Positions 28,840 to 37,051 of a stretch of DNA of 64,000 nucleotides are shown piece after piece. The notes under the pieces are model-generated. The model saw only the letters and a program-made list of their open reading frames with translations. It had not been told where the DNA came from and made no database searches. A program made the position numbers and the translations under genes. Numbering within the stretch: position 1 is the first letter of the stretch; every line of letters starts with the position of its first letter. The DNA comes from Acidobacteriota bacterium (GTDB lineage: Bacteria > Acidobacteriota > Terriglobia > Bryobacterales > Bryobacteraceae): assembly GCA_016870995.1 (NCBI GenBank), contig VFZU01000015.1, forward strand, positions 1-64,000, read 5' to 3'.

Positions 28840-30003
28840 ATGAATCAGGCCCTTTTCCGCCGCCAATTCCTGCAGTTTCTGGCCGCCAGTCCTCTCCTTG
28901 CCCAGAAGGACGACATGAAGGGCATCTTCAGCGTGATGGACTTCGAAGCTCGCGGCAAGGCCGCCATCCCACCAGCTCACTGGGGCTATCTCTCCACCGG
29001 CGTCGATGACGACGCCACGCTCCGCGCTAATCGCGCCGCTTTCGACAAACTCTTCCTCCGCCCCCGTCGCATGATCGATGTCACCTCGATCGACACTTCG
29101 GTCACTCTTTTCGGCGAGAAGTGGGACACGCCCATCATCCTCGCCCCCGCAGGCAGCCAGAAGGCCTACCATCCTGAAGGCGAGGCGGCCTCAGCCCGTG
29201 CCGCCGACCAGGCCGGATATCTGCAAATTCTCTCTACCGTTACTTCCACCCCCATCGAAGAAATCGCCAAGCTCCATCGCCGCAAGATCTGGTACCAGCT
29301 CTATCCCACCAACGTCTGGGCCAATACCGAGCGCATGGTCCGCCGCGCCGAGGCCGTCGGCTGCCCAGTCCTGGTGATTACAGTCGACACTCAGGGTGGC
29401 CGCAATACCGAGACCGAATCCCGCAGCGTCGCCCTCGACTCTCGCCCATGCTCCGCCTGTCATCCGGTCACCAAAGATGGCAAACGTGGTCGCCGGATCA
29501 TGCCCATGTTCGAGGGCTTTCAAACCGAAAACTACCTCATCCACAATCCAGCGCAAACATGGGAGACGATCAAACGCTATCGCTCCCTCACCAAGATGAA
29601 GCTCATCCTCAAGGGCCTCGAAACCTCTGAAGACGCTCGCCTAGCCGTCGAGCACGGCGTCGATGGCATCGTTGTATCAAACCACGGCGCTCGCGCCGTC
29701 GAATCCGGCCGCGGCACCCTCGATTGTCTTCCTGAAGTCATCGATGCGGTGGGTAAGCGCATGCCTGTCCTGATCGACGGTGGCTTCCGTCGCGGCACGG
29801 ATATCTTCAAGGCAATGGCCCTTGGTGCCAGCGCCGTTTTGATCGGCAGGCCCTATCTCTGGGCGCTAGGCGCCTACGGCGAACCTGGTGTCGCTAAAGT
29901 CCTCCAAATTCTCCGCAATGAGTTCGCCCTCGCCATGCGCCAGTCCGGCACTGTGAACATCGCCGCCATCAATCGCACCCATATTGGCTTCCACAAAGGT
30001 TAG
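28840..30003 (+). CDS. FMN-dependent alpha-hydroxy-acid oxidase/dehydrogenase
   Basis: 387-aa TIM-barrel flavoenzyme of the lactate/glycolate-oxidase family. FMN and active-site motifs seen are 'WDTPIILAPAGSQKAYHPEG', 'LQILSTVTSTPIEEI', 'IWYQLYP', 'LILKGLETSEDA' (flavin Lys), 'GIVVSNHGARAVESG' with the catalytic His, and 'VLIDGGFRRGTDIFKAMALG'. The N-terminus FRRQFLQFLAASPLLAQ resembles a Tat or Sec signal, which suggests an exported enzyme; exported members are seen in Acidobacteriota. It stands alone between the MOSC gene and the his leader, in the same direction as both. Substrate, probably a small 2-hydroxy acid, cannot be told. Confidence 0.92.
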   Translation: MNQALFRRQFLQFLAASPLLAQKDDMKGIFSVMDFEARGKAAIPPAHWGYLSTGVDDDATLRANRAAFDKLFLRPRRMIDVTSIDTSVTLFGEKWDTPIILAPAGSQKAYHPEGEAASARAADQAGYLQILSTVTSTPIEEIAKLHRRKIWYQLYPTNVWANTERMVRRAEAVGCPVLVITVDTQGGRNTETESRSVALDSRPCSACHPVTKDGKRGRRIMPMFEGFQTENYLIHNPAQTWETIKRYRSLTKMKLILKGLETSEDARLAVEHGVDGIVVSNHGARAVESGRGTLDCLPEVIDAVGKRMPVLIDGGFRRGTDIFKAMALGASAVLIGRPYLWALGAYGEPGVAKVLQILRNEFALAMRQSGTVNIAAINRTHIGFHKG

Positions 30004-30013
30004 GCCCTATGGT
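29984..30013 (+). promoter_or_regulatory. Possible sigma-70 promoter of the his operon
   Basis: TTGGCT (29984-29989) and TATGGT (30008-30013) are 18 bp apart, each matching 4 of 6 consensus bases. A transcript would start near 30020, six nt before the leader-peptide ATG. The -35 box lies in the end of the oxidase gene. The match is weak and rests mainly on its position. Confidence 0.3.
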
Positions 30014-30025
30014 AGTCTAAGTTTC

Positions 30026-30100
30026 ATGGCTTTTGAGCTGCATCACCACCGTCACCATCACCATCTGCACCCTGTGATGCGGTCGGCCCATATGTTGTGA
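30026..30100 (+). CDS. hisL: Histidine-operon leader peptide (24 aa, 9 His)
   Basis: ATG at 30026 opens 24 codons ending in TGA at 30098-30100. The product reads MAFELHHHRHHHHLHPVMRS followed by AHML: eight of residues 6-15 are histidine, plus one at 22. A run of codons for the end product, just upstream of an intrinsic terminator and of hisI, is the hallmark of ribosome-mediated attenuation as known for enteric hisL. When charged tRNA-His is scarce the ribosome would stall over 30041-30070 and leave 30079-30100 free to pair. There is no strong ribosome site, which fits a near-leaderless start if the promoter above is right. Confidence 0.88.
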   Translation: MAFELHHHRHHHHLHPVMRSAHML

Positions 30101-30166
30101 TCCTAGCGATACACTTCTCCTGATTCGCCCGCCGCGCTGCAATTCAGCCCGGCGGGCTTTCTGTTT
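30079..30166 (+). terminator. his attenuator: intrinsic terminator with candidate antiterminator
   Basis: Terminator stem GCCCGCCG (30127-30134) pairs with CGGCGGGC (30150-30157), extended after one mismatch by GCTG/CAGC (30036+100 to 30148 region: 30136-30139 with 30145-30148), and is followed by TTTCTGTTT (30158-30166). A competing pairing joins GCGG-t-CGG (30079-30086, at the end of the leader ORF) to CCGCCGC (30129-30135), which would break the terminator's left arm. A ribosome that finishes the leader would cover 30079-30086 and allow termination; one stalled at the His codons would not. Confidence 0.85.
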
Positions 30167-30179
30167 AAGGACTTACTTT

Positions 30180-30566
30180 GTGAACGTACCGAAACTCGAT
30201 TACACCAAGCTCGACGGCCTCGTCACCGCCGTCGTTCAGGATTGGAAAACCCAACGTGTCCTCATGGTCGGCTTCATGAACGAAGACGCATTCCGCATGA
30301 CACTGGAAACCGGTAAATGCTGCTTTTACTCCCGCTCCCGCAACAAGCTCTGGCTCAAGGGCGAAACCTCCGGCCACGTCCTCAATGTCAAAGAAATCCG
30401 CACCGACTGCGACTTCGATACCTTGCTCATCTTCGCCGAAGCCCTCGGCCCCGGCGTCTGCCATGAAGGCTACGCGAGCTGCTTTGCCAAGCAACTCACT
30501 CCCGACAACGAGTTCGTTTACGTCGACACCAAAACTTACAATCCCGACGAGGTCTACAAGCACTAA
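30180..30566 (+). CDS. hisI: Phosphoribosyl-AMP cyclohydrolase
   Basis: Third step of histidine synthesis: opens the purine ring of phosphoribosyl-AMP. At 128 aa it is the single-domain HisI, not the HisIE fusion. The Zn/Mg motifs are present: 'TDCDFDTLLIF' (DxDxD-like metal site) and the cysteines in 'CHEGYASCF', with 'GKCCFYSRSRNKLWLKGETSG' split around residues 42-62. The GTG start at 30180 has AAGGA 8 nt upstream, just after the attenuator U-tract. It is the first structural gene of the operon, followed after 3 nt by hisG. No hisE (phosphoribosyl-ATP pyrophosphatase) is encoded anywhere in the window, so that step must be done by a gene elsewhere. Confidence 0.95.
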   Translation: MNVPKLDYTKLDGLVTAVVQDWKTQRVLMVGFMNEDAFRMTLETGKCCFYSRSRNKLWLKGETSGHVLNVKEIRTDCDFDTLLIFAEALGPGVCHEGYASCFAKQLTPDNEFVYVDTKTYNPDEVYKH

Positions 30567-30569
30567 TCC

Positions 30570-31439
30570 ATGAAGCTCAAACTGGGCATTCCCAAAGGTT
30601 CGCTCGAAAGCGCAACCATCGATATCTTCCGCCGCGCTGGCTACACGATCACCACCAGCTCCCGCAGCTACTTCCCTTCGATCGACGATCCGGAGATTGA
30701 ATGCATGCTGATCCGCGCTCAGGAGATGGCTCGCTACGTAGAAGACGGCATCCTCGACGCCGGCCTCACCGGCCGCGATTGGGTGGAAGAAAACAATTCC
30801 GACGTTGTCCCCGTCGCCGACCTCGTCTACAGCCGCGCCAGCTTCTCCAAAGTCCGCTGGGTCCTCGCCGTTCCTGAAAGCTCCAACATTCACTCCGTCA
30901 AGGATCTCGAAGGCAAGATCATCGCCACCGAACTCGTCGGCGCAACCAAGCGTTACCTTGAGCGCAACGGCGTCACCGCCAAAGTCGAGTTCTCCTGGGG
31001 TGCTACCGAAGTCAAGCCGCCTGTGCTTGCCGACGCAATCGTCGAAGTCACCGAAACTGGCAATTCACTGCGCGCCAACAAGCTCCGCATCGTTGAGATA
31101 ATCCTCGAATCTAATACCCAGCTCATCGCGAACAAGAATTCTTACGAAGATTCTTGGAAGCAGAAAAAGCTCAAGGACATGAAGCTCCTCCTCGATGGCG
31201 CAATCGCCGCCCTCGGCAAGGTCGGCCTCATCCTCAATGTTGAGAAGGCCAACCTCGATCACGTGCTCTCTGTGCTCCCGGCTCTCAAGACCCCAACCAT
31301 CAGCCAGCTATCCGACCCCGCCTGGGTCGCCGTGCATACAATCCTCGACGAGACCACGGTTCGCAACATCATCCCGCGCCTCAAAGAAGCAGGCGGTCAG
31401 GGCATCGTCGAGTATCCACTCAACAAGATCATCCTCTAA
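30570..31439 (+). CDS. hisG: ATP phosphoribosyltransferase, long (self-regulated) form
   Basis: First, committed step of histidine synthesis: ATP plus PRPP. 289 aa, the long form with a C-terminal ACT-like regulatory domain, so no HisZ partner is needed and feedback inhibition by histidine is expected. Signatures are the N-terminal '[20 protein letters not shown]', '[16 protein letters not shown]', the PRPP-loop region '[16 protein letters not shown]', and '[19 protein letters not shown]'. The C-terminal domain runs from about '[13 protein letters not shown]' to the end. It starts 3 nt after hisI and its TAA overlaps the hisD ATG by 1 nt. Confidence 0.97.
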
Positions 31440-32686
31440 TGGCAACCCTACGCATCTTCCCCAAAGCCAAGGCCACCACTTTGCTCAAGCGCAAGCAGGT
31501 AGCTCTCGACGCCGCAATCTCCGTCGTCGGTCCGATCCTTGAAGCCGTCCAAACCCGCGGCGACGCAGCTCTCATCGAGTACGCCCGCAAGTTCGACGCT
31601 TTCGATCGTAAGAGCCTCCGCGTCTCCTCAAAAGAGGCCGCAGCCGTTGCCAAGTCGCTATCCCCGCAATTCATTAAGGCAGTCAAAACCGCCGCCGCGA
31701 ACATCCGCGCCTTCGCCAAAGTCCAGATCCCCAAGCCGACGTCGATCGAAGTCTCCCCGGGCCTCAAGCTCGGCACTGTCATCCGTCCTCTCGACACCGT
31801 CGCTGCCTACATCCCTTCCGGCCGCTATCCCCTCCCTTCCACCCTGTTGATGACCACCCAACCCGCTCAGGTTGCCGGCGTTCCCAACATTTGCGTCACC
31901 AGCCCCCGCATGGTCCCCGAAATTTTCGGCACGGCCCACCTCCTCGGCGTCGAGAACACCTTCCTCATCGGCGGCGCTCAAGCCATCGCTGCTTTCGCTT
32001 TCGGCACCAAAACAGTTCCCAAAGCAGACCGCATCGTTGGCCCCGGCAACATCTTCGTCGCTGCCGCCAAGAAGCTCCTCGCCGGCGATGTCGGTATCGA
32101 CTTCGTCGCCGGCCCCACCGAGATCCTCATCCTCGCAAGCAAGGGCAACCCCCGCTGGATCGCCGCCGACATGCTCGCTCAAGCCGAGCACGATACGGAC
32201 GCCGCCGCCATTCTGCTCACCACGAACACCAAACTCGCCGAGCAGGTAGCAACAGAAGTCGACCGCCAACTCGAATCCCTACCCACCGCAGCAGTAGCCC
32301 GCGAAGCGATCCGCAAGAACTCGGCCATCCTCATCGTCGACACCATGGAAGAAGCCTGCGAGCTCTCCAATCGCTTCGCCCCCGAGCACCTCTCGGTCGA
32401 AAGCGACAAATGGCTCAAGCACCTCCGTCACGCCGGCGGCATCTTCATCGGAGGTTACTCGCCTGAAGCCGCGGGCGATTACGCGAGCGGTCCGAACCAC
32501 GTCCTGCCCACCAGCGGCGCGGCCCGTCTCCGCGGCGGCCTCTCCGCAGCTGATTTCGTCAAGGTCATCACCACGCAACATCTCAGCCCCGAGGCCCTGC
32601 AAAAACTCGCGCCTGCCGTCACCACGCTCGCCCGTGCCGAAGGCCTTGAGGCCCACGCACGCTCTGTCGAAGAGAGGTTCCGCTAA
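31439..32686 (+). CDS. hisD: Histidinol dehydrogenase
   Basis: Last two oxidations, histidinol to histidine, NAD- and Zn-dependent. 415 aa, normal length. Conserved stretches are 'YIPSGRYPLPSTLLMTTQPA', 'ENTFLIGGAQAIAAFAFGT', 'KADRIVGPGNIFVAAAKK', 'DFVAGPTEILILA', 'LAQAEHDTDAAAIL' and 'NRFAPEHLSVES', then 'GPNHVLPTSGAARLRGGLS'. The active-site Glu and His pair and the Zn ligands (Q, H, D, H) fall in these blocks. The ATG overlaps the hisG TAA (TAATG), and the TAA overlaps the hisC ATG in the same way, giving tight coupling. Unlike enteric operons it precedes hisC directly, also a common order outside enterics. Confidence 0.97.
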   Translation: MATLRIFPKAKATTLLKRKQVALDAAISVVGPILEAVQTRGDAALIEYARKFDAFDRKSLRVSSKEAAAVAKSLSPQFIKAVKTAAANIRAFAKVQIPKPTSIEVSPGLKLGTVIRPLDTVAAYIPSGRYPLPSTLLMTTQPAQVAGVPNICVTSPRMVPEIFGTAHLLGVENTFLIGGAQAIAAFAFGTKTVPKADRIVGPGNIFVAAAKKLLAGDVGIDFVAGPTEILILASKGNPRWIAADMLAQAEHDTDAAAILLTTNTKLAEQVATEVDRQLESLPTAAVAREAIRKNSAILIVDTMEEACELSNRFAPEHLSVESDKWLKHLRHAGGIFIGGYSPEAAGDYASGPNHVLPTSGAARLRGGLSAADFVKVITTQHLSPEALQKLAPAVTTLARAEGLEAHARSVEERFR

Positions 32687-33759
32687 TGGACTTTCCCGGC
32701 CCTAAACCACGCCCTGCCATCGACCGCATGGCCGCATACCACCCACCGAGCGCTGGCCGCTCCGGCAAACTCCGCCTCGACTTCAACGAGAACACCTCCG
32801 GCGCCAGCCCCAAGGTCCTCGAAAAGATCCAGCAGGTCCTCACCGCCGACGCTCTCACCGTCTACCCCGAATACACCGAAGTCATCCCGGCCCTCGCCAA
32901 ATTCTTCGAAGTCGCCGAAGACGAACTCGTCATGACCAACGGCACCGACGAGGCGATTCAAGTCCTCATCAACGCCTACGTCGACAACGATGACGACGTG
33001 CTCATTCTCACCCCAAGCTACGCCATGTATCGCTTCTACGCGGAAGTCGCTGGCGCCAAGGTCCGCACGCTCCCCTACCGCAAGGACACCCTCAAGTTCC
33101 CTGTCGACGAACTCATCGAGTCGATCCGCCCCGACACCAAAGCGATCCTCATCTCGAACCCCAACAACCCCACCGGCACCGCCATCAAGCGCGAAGGTAT
33201 CGAGCGCATCCTCGATCGCGCCCCCGGCGCCGCCGTCCTCATCGACGAAGCTTACTTCGAGTTCTGCGGCATCACCATGCTGCCTTATCTGAACGAATAC
33301 CCGAACCTCTTCGTCAGCCGCACCTTCTCGAAGGTCTACGGCATGGCCGCTCTCCGCGCCGGCTGCCTGTTTTCCTGCGCGGATAACATGGCAGCCATCC
33401 ATAAGTCGCACTCCCCCTACTCGGTCAACTTCATCGCCGCCATCGCCGCCAAGGCCGCCGTCGAAGACACAGCCTTTCTCAAGTCCTTTGTCATAGAAGT
33501 TCTCGCCGCTCGAGAAGTCCTCACCGCCGGTCTCGAAAAGCTCGGCGTCCCCTACGTCCCCACCCAGGCCAACTTCGTCCTCATGCACGTCGGCCCGCGC
33601 TCCCAAGAAGTCTGCGACCGCCTCAAGGTCGACGGCATTCTCGTTCGCAATCGCAGCTACGAAATCCCCGGCTGCGTCCGCGTCACAGTTGGTACTCAAG
33701 AACAAACCCGCCGCTTCCTCGCCGCATTTGAACTTATCTGGAAGAAAATCCAACGATGA
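32686..33759 (+). CDS. hisC: Histidinol-phosphate aminotransferase
   Basis: PLP enzyme converting imidazole-acetol phosphate to histidinol phosphate. 357 aa. Fold-type-I signatures: 'LRLDFNENTSGASPKVLEK', 'VMTNGTDEAIQVLINAYVD', 'ILISNPNNPTGTAI', 'VLIDEAYFEFCG', and the PLP lysine in 'LFVSRTFSKVYGMAALRAG'. The ATG at 32686 overlaps the hisD stop by 1 nt. The TGA overlaps the ATG of the HAD phosphatase as ATGA. A long antiparallel ORF covers almost the same interval; that is a codon-usage shadow (C-rich third positions), not a gene. Confidence 0.96.
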   Translation: MDFPGPKPRPAIDRMAAYHPPSAGRSGKLRLDFNENTSGASPKVLEKIQQVLTADALTVYPEYTEVIPALAKFFEVAEDELVMTNGTDEAIQVLINAYVDNDDDVLILTPSYAMYRFYAEVAGAKVRTLPYRKDTLKFPVDELIESIRPDTKAILISNPNNPTGTAIKREGIERILDRAPGAAVLIDEAYFEFCGITMLPYLNEYPNLFVSRTFSKVYGMAALRAGCLFSCADNMAAIHKSHSPYSVNFIAAIAAKAAVEDTAFLKSFVIEVLAAREVLTAGLEKLGVPYVPTQANFVLMHVGPRSQEVCDRLKVDGILVRNRSYEIPGCVRVTVGTQEQTRRFLAAFELIWKKIQR

Positions 33760-34403
33760 GCAAACCGATGATCGTCTTCGACATGGACGGCGTCCTCGTC
33801 GAGGTCAAGGAATCCTACCGCGAATCCATCCGCGCCACCGTCCTGCACTTCACCGGCAAGGACGTTCCTCACGACCTCATCCAGCACTACAAAAACCAGG
33901 GCGGCTGGAACAACGACTGGAAGCTCAGCCACGAGCTTTGCAGCGTCTACGGCAAAGAGGTCGCCTACGAAACCGTTGTCGAAACCTTCAATCGCTACTT
34001 CTTCGGCGTCGACGGCACCCCCGGCTTGATCGAGCGTGAGAAGTGGATCGACACCACCGGGGTCCTCAAGCGCCTCAACCAGCGCTACGACTTCGCTATC
34101 TTCACCGGACGCCTCAATGCAGAAGCTCAGATCACCCTCCGCCGCTTCGCCGGAGATCTCAACATCACCGCCGTCATCGGCGACGACAACGTCACTCAAT
34201 CCAAGCCCCACCCCGAGGGCCTGCTCAAGCTCATGGAACAGCACCAGGTCGTTTACTACCTCGGCGACACCGTCGACGACGCCAAGGCCTCCAAGGCCGC
34301 CCACGTCCCCTTCATCGCCATCACTGCCCCCGGCGGCAACTTCGCCGCCTTTAGCCCGGCCCACTTCCTCACGAGCATCAACGAACTGGAGACTGTCCTC
34401 TAA
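33756..34403 (+). CDS. HAD-superfamily phosphatase inside the his operon, candidate histidinol-phosphatase
   Basis: 215-aa HAD hydrolase. Motif I is FDMDGVLVE (D9, D11), motif II the Thr of AIFTGRLN, motif III the Lys in QSKPHPEG, and motif [10 protein letters not shown]; a helical cap lies between I and II (subfamily IA). It sits between hisC and hisB with 4-nt and 1-nt overlaps, so it is made in step with the pathway enzymes. hisB here is dehydratase only, and no PHP-type HisK or HisB-N domain is present, so the histidinol-phosphate phosphatase step is otherwise unfilled in the operon. I infer that this protein does it. Related IA-type HADs occur beside or fused to hisB in other lineages as I recall. 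Direct proof is lacking. Confidence 0.85.
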
Positions 34404-34990
34404 TGCGCACCGCAAAAATCGAACGAATCACCAAAGAAACCCAAATTTGTGGAAACCTCAAGATCGAAGGTAAAGGCAAGTACGAGATCTCGACCGGCGT
34501 TCGCTTTCTCGACCACATGCTCGAGCTCTTCACCAAGCACGGCGGTTTCGATCTCAAGCTCCACGCCACCGGTGATCTCGACGTCGACCAGCACCACACC
34601 GTCGAAGATGCGGGCATCGTTCTCGGCCAGCTCTTCAGCCAGGCCCTCGGTGATCGCAAAGGCATCAACCGCGCTGGCTACTTCGTCCAGACCATGGACG
34701 AAACCCTCGCCGTTACCGCCGTCGATCTCGGCGGCCGTCCCGCACTCGTCTACAAAGACCTCGTTAAAGTCGTTCGCGTCGGCGACCTCCAAACCGAACT
34801 CCTCATCGACTTCTTCGATGGCTTCACCCAGCACGCCAAAGCCAACCTCCACGCCAAGGTCATGTACGGCCGCTCCAACCATCACAAGATCGAAGCCGTC
34901 TTCAAGTGCTTCGCTCGCGCGATGAAGTACGCCTGCTCGAAAGACGCCCGCCTCAAGGGTCAGTTGCCCTCCACCAAGGAGCTCCTGTGA
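34403..34990 (+). CDS. hisB: Imidazoleglycerol-phosphate dehydratase
   Basis: Dehydrates imidazoleglycerol phosphate to imidazole-acetol phosphate; Mn-dependent. 195 aa, the single-function form without the phosphatase domain of enteric HisB. The metal-binding His/Glu clusters are clear: '[20 protein letters not shown]', '[17 protein letters not shown]' and, in the second half of the internal repeat, '[20 protein letters not shown]' and '[16 protein letters not shown]'. The start ATG overlaps the TAA of the HAD gene by 1 nt, and the TGA overlaps the GTG of hisH as GTGA. Confidence 0.97.
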
Positions 34991-35583
34991 TCTCGATCAT
35001 CGACTACGGCGCTGGCAACCTGCGCTCAGTCCAGAACACCCTCGCCGAGCTAGGCGCTGTCTACAAGCTCATCGACACTCCTGACGCCGTCCTCAAGGCC
35101 GACAAACTGATCCTCCCCGGCGTTGGCCACTTCGGCCAGCTCATGATGTCCCTTGACGCTCTAAAGCTCCGAACACCGATCCTCGAAAAGATCGCCTCTG
35201 GCACCCCCTTCTTCGGCATCTGCCTCGGCATGCAGGCCCTGTTTTCTGGCAGCGACGAAGCCCCCGAGCTCGAAGGTCTCAACCTCTATCCCGAACGCAT
35301 CCAGCGCTTCCCCGCCGGTGCCCGCGTCCCACACATGGGCTGGAACTCGCTCCAAGTCAAACCCGATTCAAAACTCATGACCGGCCTCCCTGAGCCCATC
35401 TACGTCTACTTCGCCAACAGCTACTACGCACCTCCCGTCGAGGTCACCTCGGCCACCTGCGACTATCAGCTCCCCTTCACTGCCGCTATCGAACGCGGTA
35501 ATGTTTACGGGGTTCAGTTCCACCCCGAGAAGTCCGGCCCCACCGGCCTCCGCATCGTCCGCAACTTCCTGGAGCTTGCCTGA
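34987..35583 (+). CDS. hisH: Imidazole glycerol phosphate synthase, glutaminase subunit
   Basis: Class-I glutamine amidotransferase that supplies ammonia to HisF. 198 aa from a GTG at 34987 ([20 protein letters not shown]). The catalytic Cys is in the nucleophile elbow [10 protein letters not shown], and the His-Glu pair is in [10 protein letters not shown]. An upstream extension of the frame to 34906 lies inside hisB and carries no HisH sequence; the GTG overlapping the hisB TGA (GTGA) is the right start, matching the pattern of the operon. The hisF ATG overlaps its stop by 1 nt (TGATG). The tunnel partner HisF is encoded next. Confidence 0.96.
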
Positions 35584-36344
35584 TGCTGGCCAAACGAATC
35601 ATCCCCTGCTTGGACGTTACTGCTGGTCGCGTCGTCAAAGGCATTAACTTCGTCAACCTACGCGACGCCGGCGACCCCGTCGAACTCGCCCAACGCTATA
35701 ACCAACAAGGCGCCGACGAAGTCGTCTTCCTCGATATCACCGCCAGCTCCGACGAGCGCAACACGATGGTCGACGTCGTCTTCCGCACAGCACAGCGAGT
35801 CTTCATCCCCCTTACCGTCGGCGGCGGCATCCGCGAAGTCCGCGACGCTCGCAAGATCCTCGTCTCTGGCGCGGACAAAGTCAGCGTCAACACCGCCGCC
35901 GTCCGTCGCCCCGAGCTCATCACCGAGCTCTCCAAAGAATTCGGCGCACAGGCTGTCGTACTTGCCATCGACGCCCGCCGCAAGGGCGATTCCTGGTCGG
36001 TCCACACCAAAGGTGGCCGCGTCGACGAATCCATCGACGTCATCGAATGGGCCAGCCGTGGCGAAGCCCTCGGTGCAGGCGAGATCCTCCTCACCTCGAT
36101 GGATACCGACGGCGTGCAAAAGGGTTTCGATTGCGAGCTCACCCGCGCGGTCAGCCGCGCCACTCGCATTCCCGTCATCGCCAGCGGTGGTGGCGGCACG
36201 CCCGAGCACTTCCTTGAAGTCCTCACAACGGGCGAAGCCGACGCAGCCCTCGCTGCCAGCATCTTCCACTACGGTACCTACACCGTCAATGACCTCAAAG
36301 AATTCCTCGACCGCAACGGCATCCCCGTTAGGAGCAACTCGTGA
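35583..36344 (+). CDS. hisF: Imidazole glycerol phosphate synthase, cyclase subunit
   Basis: (beta/alpha)8-barrel that makes imidazoleglycerol phosphate and AICAR from PRFAR with ammonia from HisH. 253 aa. The catalytic Asp is in '[16 protein letters not shown]'. Further signatures are '[17 protein letters not shown]', '[14 protein letters not shown]', '[12 protein letters not shown]', '[17 protein letters not shown]' with the second Asp, and '[14 protein letters not shown]'. The start overlaps the hisH stop by 1 nt; the TGA overlaps the GTG of hisA. The AICAR product links to purine synthesis. Confidence 0.97.
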
Positions 36345-37051
36345 TCGTACCTTGTATTGACCTGCAAGACCGCAAAGTCGTCCAACTCGTTCAGGGCCGC
36401 GAGAAAGCCCTCGAAGGCGAAGAACCTCTCGTGATGCTCGCGAAGTTCGCCGGCTTCCCCGAAATTCAAGTCATCGACCTCGACGCCGCCATGGGCCGCG
36501 GCGCCAACGACGACATCGTCGAACTCCTCGCCGGCCGAGTCCGCTGCCGCGTTGGTGGCGGCGTCCGCTCTCCAGAGCGCGCACAAACCCTCGTCGATCA
36601 GGGTGCCGCACAAGTCATCGTCGGCACTGCTGCTTTTACCAAGACCGGCATCAACGTCCCGCTCCTCGATTCCATCGCCGCCCAGATCGGCCGCGAGAAA
36701 ATCCTCATCGCCCTCGATTCCAAGTACGGCAAGATCGTCGTCAAGGGCTGGCAGGAATCAACCGACCTCACCGCCGTCGAAGTCCTCCAGCAAGTCGAAC
36801 CCTACTGCGGCGGCTTCCTCTGCACGTACGTCGACAAGGAAGGCATGATGCAGGGTACAGACCTCGACTGGTTCCATAGCCTTAGACAAGGCACGAAGCT
36901 CCCTATCACCGCCGCCGGCGGCATCACCACCATCGACGACGTCAAGGCCCTCATGTCGATGGGCATCCACTCCGCCCTCGGTATGGCCATTTACACCGGC
37001 CGCCTCGACCTCGCCGAGCTCCGCACTCTTCTCGATTCAACCAGGCAATAA
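36341..37051 (+). CDS. hisA: ProFAR isomerase (phosphoribosylformimino-AICAR-P isomerase)
   Basis: Barrel enzyme paralogous to HisF, catalysing the Amadori rearrangement of ProFAR to PRFAR. 236 aa from GTG at 36341. Signatures: '[20 protein letters not shown]' with the catalytic Asp near residue 6, '[20 protein letters not shown]', '[19 protein letters not shown]' and '[20 protein letters not shown]'. The second-half catalytic Asp that in many HisA lies in a 'YTDI...DG' block is replaced here by '[18 protein letters not shown]'. That matches the divergent HisA-like branch also known from eukaryotes; activity is still expected from operon context. It is the last his gene; downstream is a 153-nt gap. 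Confidence 0.92.

Follow-up and report, generated by a model that had tools for sequence, protein, structure and literature searches.

The locus raises the question of what a short open reading frame (ORF) rich in histidine codons does directly upstream of a histidine operon in a member of the Bryobacteraceae (Acidobacteriota). The window, that is the whole stretch of 64,000 nucleotides that was analysed, contains on its plus strand, from 30180 to 37051, an operon of the order hisI-hisG-hisD-hisC-HAD-hisB-hisH-hisF-hisA, as assigned by NCBIfam models. We think it very likely that the ORF belongs to a ribosome-mediated his attenuator, which would sense charged His-tRNA via a His-rich leader peptide encoded by an mRNA that is very probably leaderless. 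The operon genes are the following:

30180 to 30566, plus strand: hisI, phosphoribosyl-AMP cyclohydrolase, the first structural gene (NF000768, over cut-off)
30570 to 31439, plus strand: hisG (TIGR00070)
31439 to 32686, plus strand: hisD (TIGR00069)
32686 to 33759, plus strand: hisC (TIGR01141)
33756 to 34403, plus strand: HAD hydrolase near TIGR01548, between hisC and hisB (NCBIfam)
34403 to 34990, plus strand: hisB (NF002111)
34984 to 35583, plus strand: hisH (TIGR01855)
35583 to 36344, plus strand: hisF (TIGR00735)
36341 to 37051, plus strand: hisA (TIGR00007 as best match, below the curated cut-off)

The first gene, hisI, starts with a GTG codon at 30180 and has AAGGA upstream at 30167-30171. 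As the operon has no other gene for the histidinol-phosphatase step, the HAD hydrolase may be a candidate for it. A hisE above the family cut-off was not found in the whole genome (G000); the best weak match, with 28 bits at C159:1554-1709, belongs to a 264-aa open frame that may encode a MazG-type pyrophosphohydrolase.

Upstream of hisI, the following elements were assigned:

29990 to 29995, plus strand: weak -35-like hexamer TCCACA, 17 nt before the -10 hexamer (tentative, by comparison)
30013 to 30018, plus strand: -10-like hexamer TAGTCT, 7 nt before the leader ATG (by comparison with relatives)
30026 to 30100, plus strand: leader-peptide ORF MAFELHHHRHHHHLHPVMRSAHML, putatively leaderless (from the sequence; conserved in relatives)
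30038 to 30046, plus strand: protector segment 1, predicted to pair with 30074-30082 when the ribosome is absent (folding; codon shuffles, 67 loci)
30041 to 30070, plus strand: putative regulatory His codons, codons 6-15, eight His in ten (sequence, shuffles)
30074 to 30082, plus strand: protector segment 2, overlapping the antiterminator segment (folding)
30078 to 30087, plus strand: predicted antiterminator segment at the ORF end, pairing with 30127-30136 (pairing scores, folding)
30127 to 30157, plus strand: predicted intrinsic terminator hairpin GCCCGCCGCGCTG-CAATT-CAGCCCGGCGGGC (folding)
30158 to 30166, plus strand: U-rich terminator tail TTTCTGTTT (from the sequence)

The ORF runs from the ATG at 30026 to a TGA ending at 30100 and comprises 24 codons, nine of them for His. 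Its His pattern, CAYCAYNNNCAYCAYCAYCAY, is present at a single place in the window and did not arise in any of 100 shuffles. Across 73 leader ORFs of related genomes, 414 of 1704 codons specify His (238 CAT and 176 CAC), and the use of both codons shows that conservation applies to the amino acid and not to the nucleotides. What precedes the operon is a short ORF rich in the codons of the operon's own amino acid, and between this ORF and the first gene the sequence contains a predicted intrinsic terminator, both of them features of attenuators of the leader-peptide class. The arms of the hairpin span 30127-30139 (left, GCCCGCCGCGCTG) and 30145-30157 (right), and folding gives it -24.6 kcal/mol. 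The interruption of the tail TTTCTGTTT counts against the attenuator reading, and a strict terminator-plus-His pattern had no match on the window's own genome because the tail begins with TTTC where the pattern asks for TTTT. In its main lines this architecture had already been recognized in a first-pass annotation of the sequence: the 24 codons with nine His, eight of them in ten consecutive codons, agree with the window sequence, and so does a G/C-rich terminator with a U-tract ahead of hisI. Its spacing of 27 nt between ORF and terminator has to be corrected to 26 nt from stop codon to hairpin, and the pairing it proposed between the ORF end and the left arm of the terminator holds as an element, with 30079-30086 and 30129-30135 replaced by the computed 30078-30087 and 30127-30136.

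Folding recovers three mutually exclusive states, a protector, an antiterminator and the terminator. Without a ribosome, the protector pairing, whose first segment extends into the His codons, conceals the antiterminator segment and the terminator forms. The ribosome was assumed to mask about 12 nt 3' of its A site in these folds; with the A site at codons 6 to 10, the antiterminator results, with about -20 kcal/mol for a transcript reaching to the terminator loop and nine of ten positions paired, and with a ribosome on the stop codon the terminator is the only possible structure. The protector pairing scored 0.81 as compared with 0.63 for codon shuffles (p about 3e-10, 67 loci). Equilibrium folding at full length favours the completed terminator over the antiterminator, and antitermination must therefore rest on the order of folding during transcription. 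Such a dependence on folding order is accepted for other attenuators.

From the ORF, the predicted terminator, the complementarities, their conservation and covariation, and the promoter spacing, we infer stalling, termination and read-through as follows. With ample charged His-tRNA, the ribosome would reach the stop codon and mask the ORF end, so that the terminator at 30127-30157 would form and transcription would halt before hisI. A shortage of His-tRNA would make the ribosome stall within the His codons at 30041-30070 and disrupt the pairing of 30038-30046 with 30074-30082, which would expose 30078-30087. The exposed segment could then capture 30127-30136 once that arm is made, the terminator could not form in time, and the operon would be transcribed. 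If no ribosome is present, the protector would conceal 30078-30087 and the terminator would form.

The pairing between the ORF end and the terminator arm can be followed in related genomes. HisI was located in 96 of 101 of these, and 90 loci could be oriented and their upstream regions scanned. The ORF end is commonly CGRCGGGC, finishing 10 nt before the end of the ORF, and complements the left arm, which is commonly GCCCGCCG. The mean best score of ORF end against left arm was 19.5, as compared with 15.4 (sd 0.3) for codon-shuffled ORFs, and the mean with the locus's own arm was 19.2, as compared with 17.5 after permuting the arms among loci (sd 0.24; maximum of 300 permutations 18.2), although the related genomes are not independent and the pairing statistics are therefore not formal probabilities. 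If the ORF window is fixed by position, with pairing ignored, 0.63 of the cells pair, and sliding this ORF window by 1 to 6 nt reduces the value to 0.36-0.49. Firmer evidence comes from the compensatory changes between groups of loci. Loci with CCCGCT or CCCGG arms have ORF ends altered to match, and swapping arms between the groups lowers the score. In other classes, arms like AACCCCGCCAC are matched by ORF ends like GTGGCGGAGTT, and for 18 loci of other families and classes the ORF-arm score was 21.2, as compared with 15.4 +/- 0.65. A further leader, near hisD in a genome of another class (L157), has an ORF end CCGGAGGG that matches its own terminator arm CCCTCCGG. An antiterminator sharing an arm with the terminator is found in this way both in the predicted structure and in the covariation; its freeing would come about through stalling. 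As two partners have to pair with one and the same terminator arm, the element offers a clear case of three-way covariation.

An ATG ORF with at least three His codons was found upstream of hisI in 73 of the 90 loci. A stricter rule, an ATG ORF with at least four His in seven codons, was satisfied at 65 of the 90, 62 of them with a terminator. As control DNA, both strands around leuA, trpE and ilvB were taken from 30 genomes of the same set; the stricter rule returned nothing in these 776,092 bases, and a single hit in 1800 dinucleotide shuffles of hisI upstream regions. Most of the loci without a leader among the 90 belong to one family of the order (f3), chiefly to its genus g56; here hisD comes after hisI, hisG lies elsewhere and no leader was seen. 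In seven genomes of g56 and g59 that were searched for hisG, the copies were distant, unlinked and without a His leader. The same arrangement, hisI directly followed by hisD, a distant and unlinked hisG and no His leader, was observed at L249-L252 (in G064, G070, G065 and G071). Six genomes of the class, outside the 90 loci, do not have hisI in first place, and the four operon starts that could be reached among them are hisG-first and lack the leader. Its absence in g56 and in hisG-first operons elsewhere in the phylum indicates that the leader is not essential.

From a phylum sample of 197 genomes, 28 new loci (L091-L118) were examined, of which 24 are hisI-first, and one further locus (L150, in G209). 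The leader precedes 23 of these 24, in 20 cases by the automatic scan and in three by eye; as those at L099, L102 and L115 were seen only by eye, the automatic counts are lower bounds. The search of other Bryobacterales that the first-pass annotation had proposed as a check has thereby shown hisI to be preceded by the His-rich ORF and terminator across the whole family as well as in other classes, and its second check, for compensatory changes in the stems, found the shared terminator arm and its partner in the ORF end changing together. In a set of 80 named loci, the leader occurs in 16 of 18 labelled Acidobacteria, Bryobacterales or Terriglobia and in none of 60 from other groups, although this absence carries little weight, as his operons of other phyla often start with a gene other than hisI. 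Named relatives confirm the phylum assignment. Two loci labelled Armatimonadetes and Ferrithrix (L270 and L271) also carry the leader; their HisI is closely related, and they are probably misnamed bins.

The remark of the first-pass annotation that the mRNA leader before the ATG would be very short is borne out by the spacing of the -10-like element, and the short leader is a conserved feature. In relatives this hexamer reads TATACT, TATTCT, TATCCT or TAATCT. Of 68 leaders, 55 have a TANNNT hexamer whose end lies 8 or 9 nt ahead of the ATG, and at other distances such hexamers are rare. The leader ATG is usually preceded by TTC, and several members of the class have TTGACA 17-18 nt before the -10 element. 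A simple sigma-70 promoter scan returned no strong site in the window. The leader's own promoter is weak by consensus, which counts against the attenuator reading, and the evidence for the -10 element is comparative. SD-like 4-mers are present in six of the 68 leaders, as compared with 52 of 90 hisI start regions. In Corynebacterium glutamicum, the distance from the -10 element to the transcription start is 7 +/- 1 nt (PMC3896937), and by this spacing the mRNA probably starts about 0 to 3 nt before the leader AUG. By comparison of the leaders, a -10 box thus ends 8-9 nt ahead of the start codon and a Shine-Dalgarno sequence is mostly absent, so that translation of the leader peptide very probably starts on a leaderless mRNA. 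Such initiation fits the phylum: in three Acidobacteria genomes, the share of leaderless genes has been put at about 13% (PMC3160421).

Other explanations of the locus have to be weighed against the attenuator. The hairpin could be no more than the terminator of the alpha-hydroxy-acid oxidase gene upstream, which lies on the same strand and ends at 30003, and the His codons could be there by chance; immediately upstream, two congener loci (L003 and L004) likewise have sequence that resembles the end of a similar gene. Against this, the His run is kept across genera whose upstream sequences differ, the chance level of such a His-rich ORF is nil by the above controls, the promoter-like hexamer at its fixed distance sets the leader apart from the oxidase gene, and the ORF end covaries with the terminator arm. 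We therefore consider this explanation very improbable. We give equally little credence to the idea that the leader acts on hisI translation or via Rho rather than via an intrinsic terminator: T tracts are indeed weak in some loci (L099 and L102), but in most loci a T tract follows the hairpin directly, and in most of those the hairpin ends before the hisI start.

The ORF might also encode a functional small His-rich protein, for instance a metal-binding one or one that acts in trans like peTrpL. The peptide end MRPAHML is conserved within the genus, as such a function would suggest, but comparison of genera shows variation outside the His run, except in the part that encodes the pairing segment, and the ORF is tied to his operons and absent from the 776 kb of other DNA, which makes a small protein extremely improbable as the explanation of the locus. 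A trans role of the leader peptide besides attenuation may nevertheless exist.

The attenuator proposed here resembles that of enterobacteria (hisL, RF00514) in its His-rich peptide, its terminator, its exclusive antiterminator and protector pairings and its control of a his operon. It differs in that hisI and not hisG is the first gene, that the leader ORF's own end forms the antiterminator, that the ORF is putatively leaderless without a Shine-Dalgarno sequence, and in the phylum. The element matched neither the RF00514 His_leader covariance model nor that of the T-box riboswitch, and Rfam gave no match at the gathering threshold and, for 29900-30250, none with E up to 5. The cysteine uORFs of mycobacteria are leader peptides that lack a ribosome binding site. 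Another one is that of C. glutamicum ilvBNC (Morbach 2000, cited in PMC10272879); these actinobacterial leaders share with the present one the missing ribosome binding site and the attenuation of an amino acid operon, and differ in the amino acids. The hisD leader of C. glutamicum has no His-rich ORF, and a T-box was proposed for it (PMC3896937).

Control of his operons by leader peptides had been described by the first-pass annotation as established mainly for Gammaproteobacteria, which stands as far as establishment is concerned. It is not confined to them, since the pertinent passages of PMC9413887 and PMC2965389 predict it in some Firmicutes as well, namely in the B. cereus group, Peptostreptococcaceae and Erysipelotrichales (PMC9413887) and for hisS/hisZ in bacilli (PMC2965389). 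In those passages, the Firmicutes leaders likewise have several consecutive His codons followed by an alternative terminator and antiterminator; they belong to scattered lineages, with no phylum-wide element, and no leaderless start is reported there. The annotation was also aware of no such control in the present phylum, in line with the literature searched, which gave no description of a his attenuator in Acidobacteriota, though an earlier computational mention may exist. Judged by its sequence, the mechanism is of a known kind, and we regard the element as a separate family, putatively leaderless and with a wide range in the phylum.

An operon of branched-chain amino acid synthesis in the same genome is built to the same design, again with a putatively leaderless ORF. 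Its ilvB (G000:C35, L227; 4611-6296, minus strand) is preceded by the leader MTNLTGATRYQRPAVIPVIRAVVIIIGILLVGVGVVQVPCTPA. A TATTCT lies 7 nt ahead of the leader ATG, TTGCAT occupies the -35 position, and the ORF end CCCGCT pairs with GGCGGG of the terminator arm. An Ile/Leu/Val-rich leader with a terminator and a matching antiterminator precedes ilvB in most of the family genomes examined (L219-L233), and in ten loci of the family the ORF end scored 20.9 against the arm, as compared with 14.9 for codon shuffles (sd 0.96). We consider it probable that the Acidobacteriota possess phylum-wide leaderless-ORF attenuators of an origin independent of the proteobacterial ones, so that amino acid sensing would depend on ribosomes initiating at a 5'-terminal AUG; the span of this proposal is his in several classes and ilv in the window's family and a sister family. 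Acidobacteriota are a major soil phylum in which amino acid regulation is almost undescribed, and in the relevant passage of a survey of predicted terminators almost none of the predicted Acidobacteria attenuators had an associated function (PMC2965389). A compact, conserved His attenuator would define a regulon and offer a route to others, as already with ilv, and the element could serve as a naturally occurring reporter of the coupling between leaderless translation and transcription.

In the same 30 genomes, the same kind of scan gave no leader in the leuA upstream regions and one weak candidate in those of trpE. The latter (L202, in G124, from another class) lies 96-189 nt before the trpE match and combines two adjacent Trp codons with a terminator.
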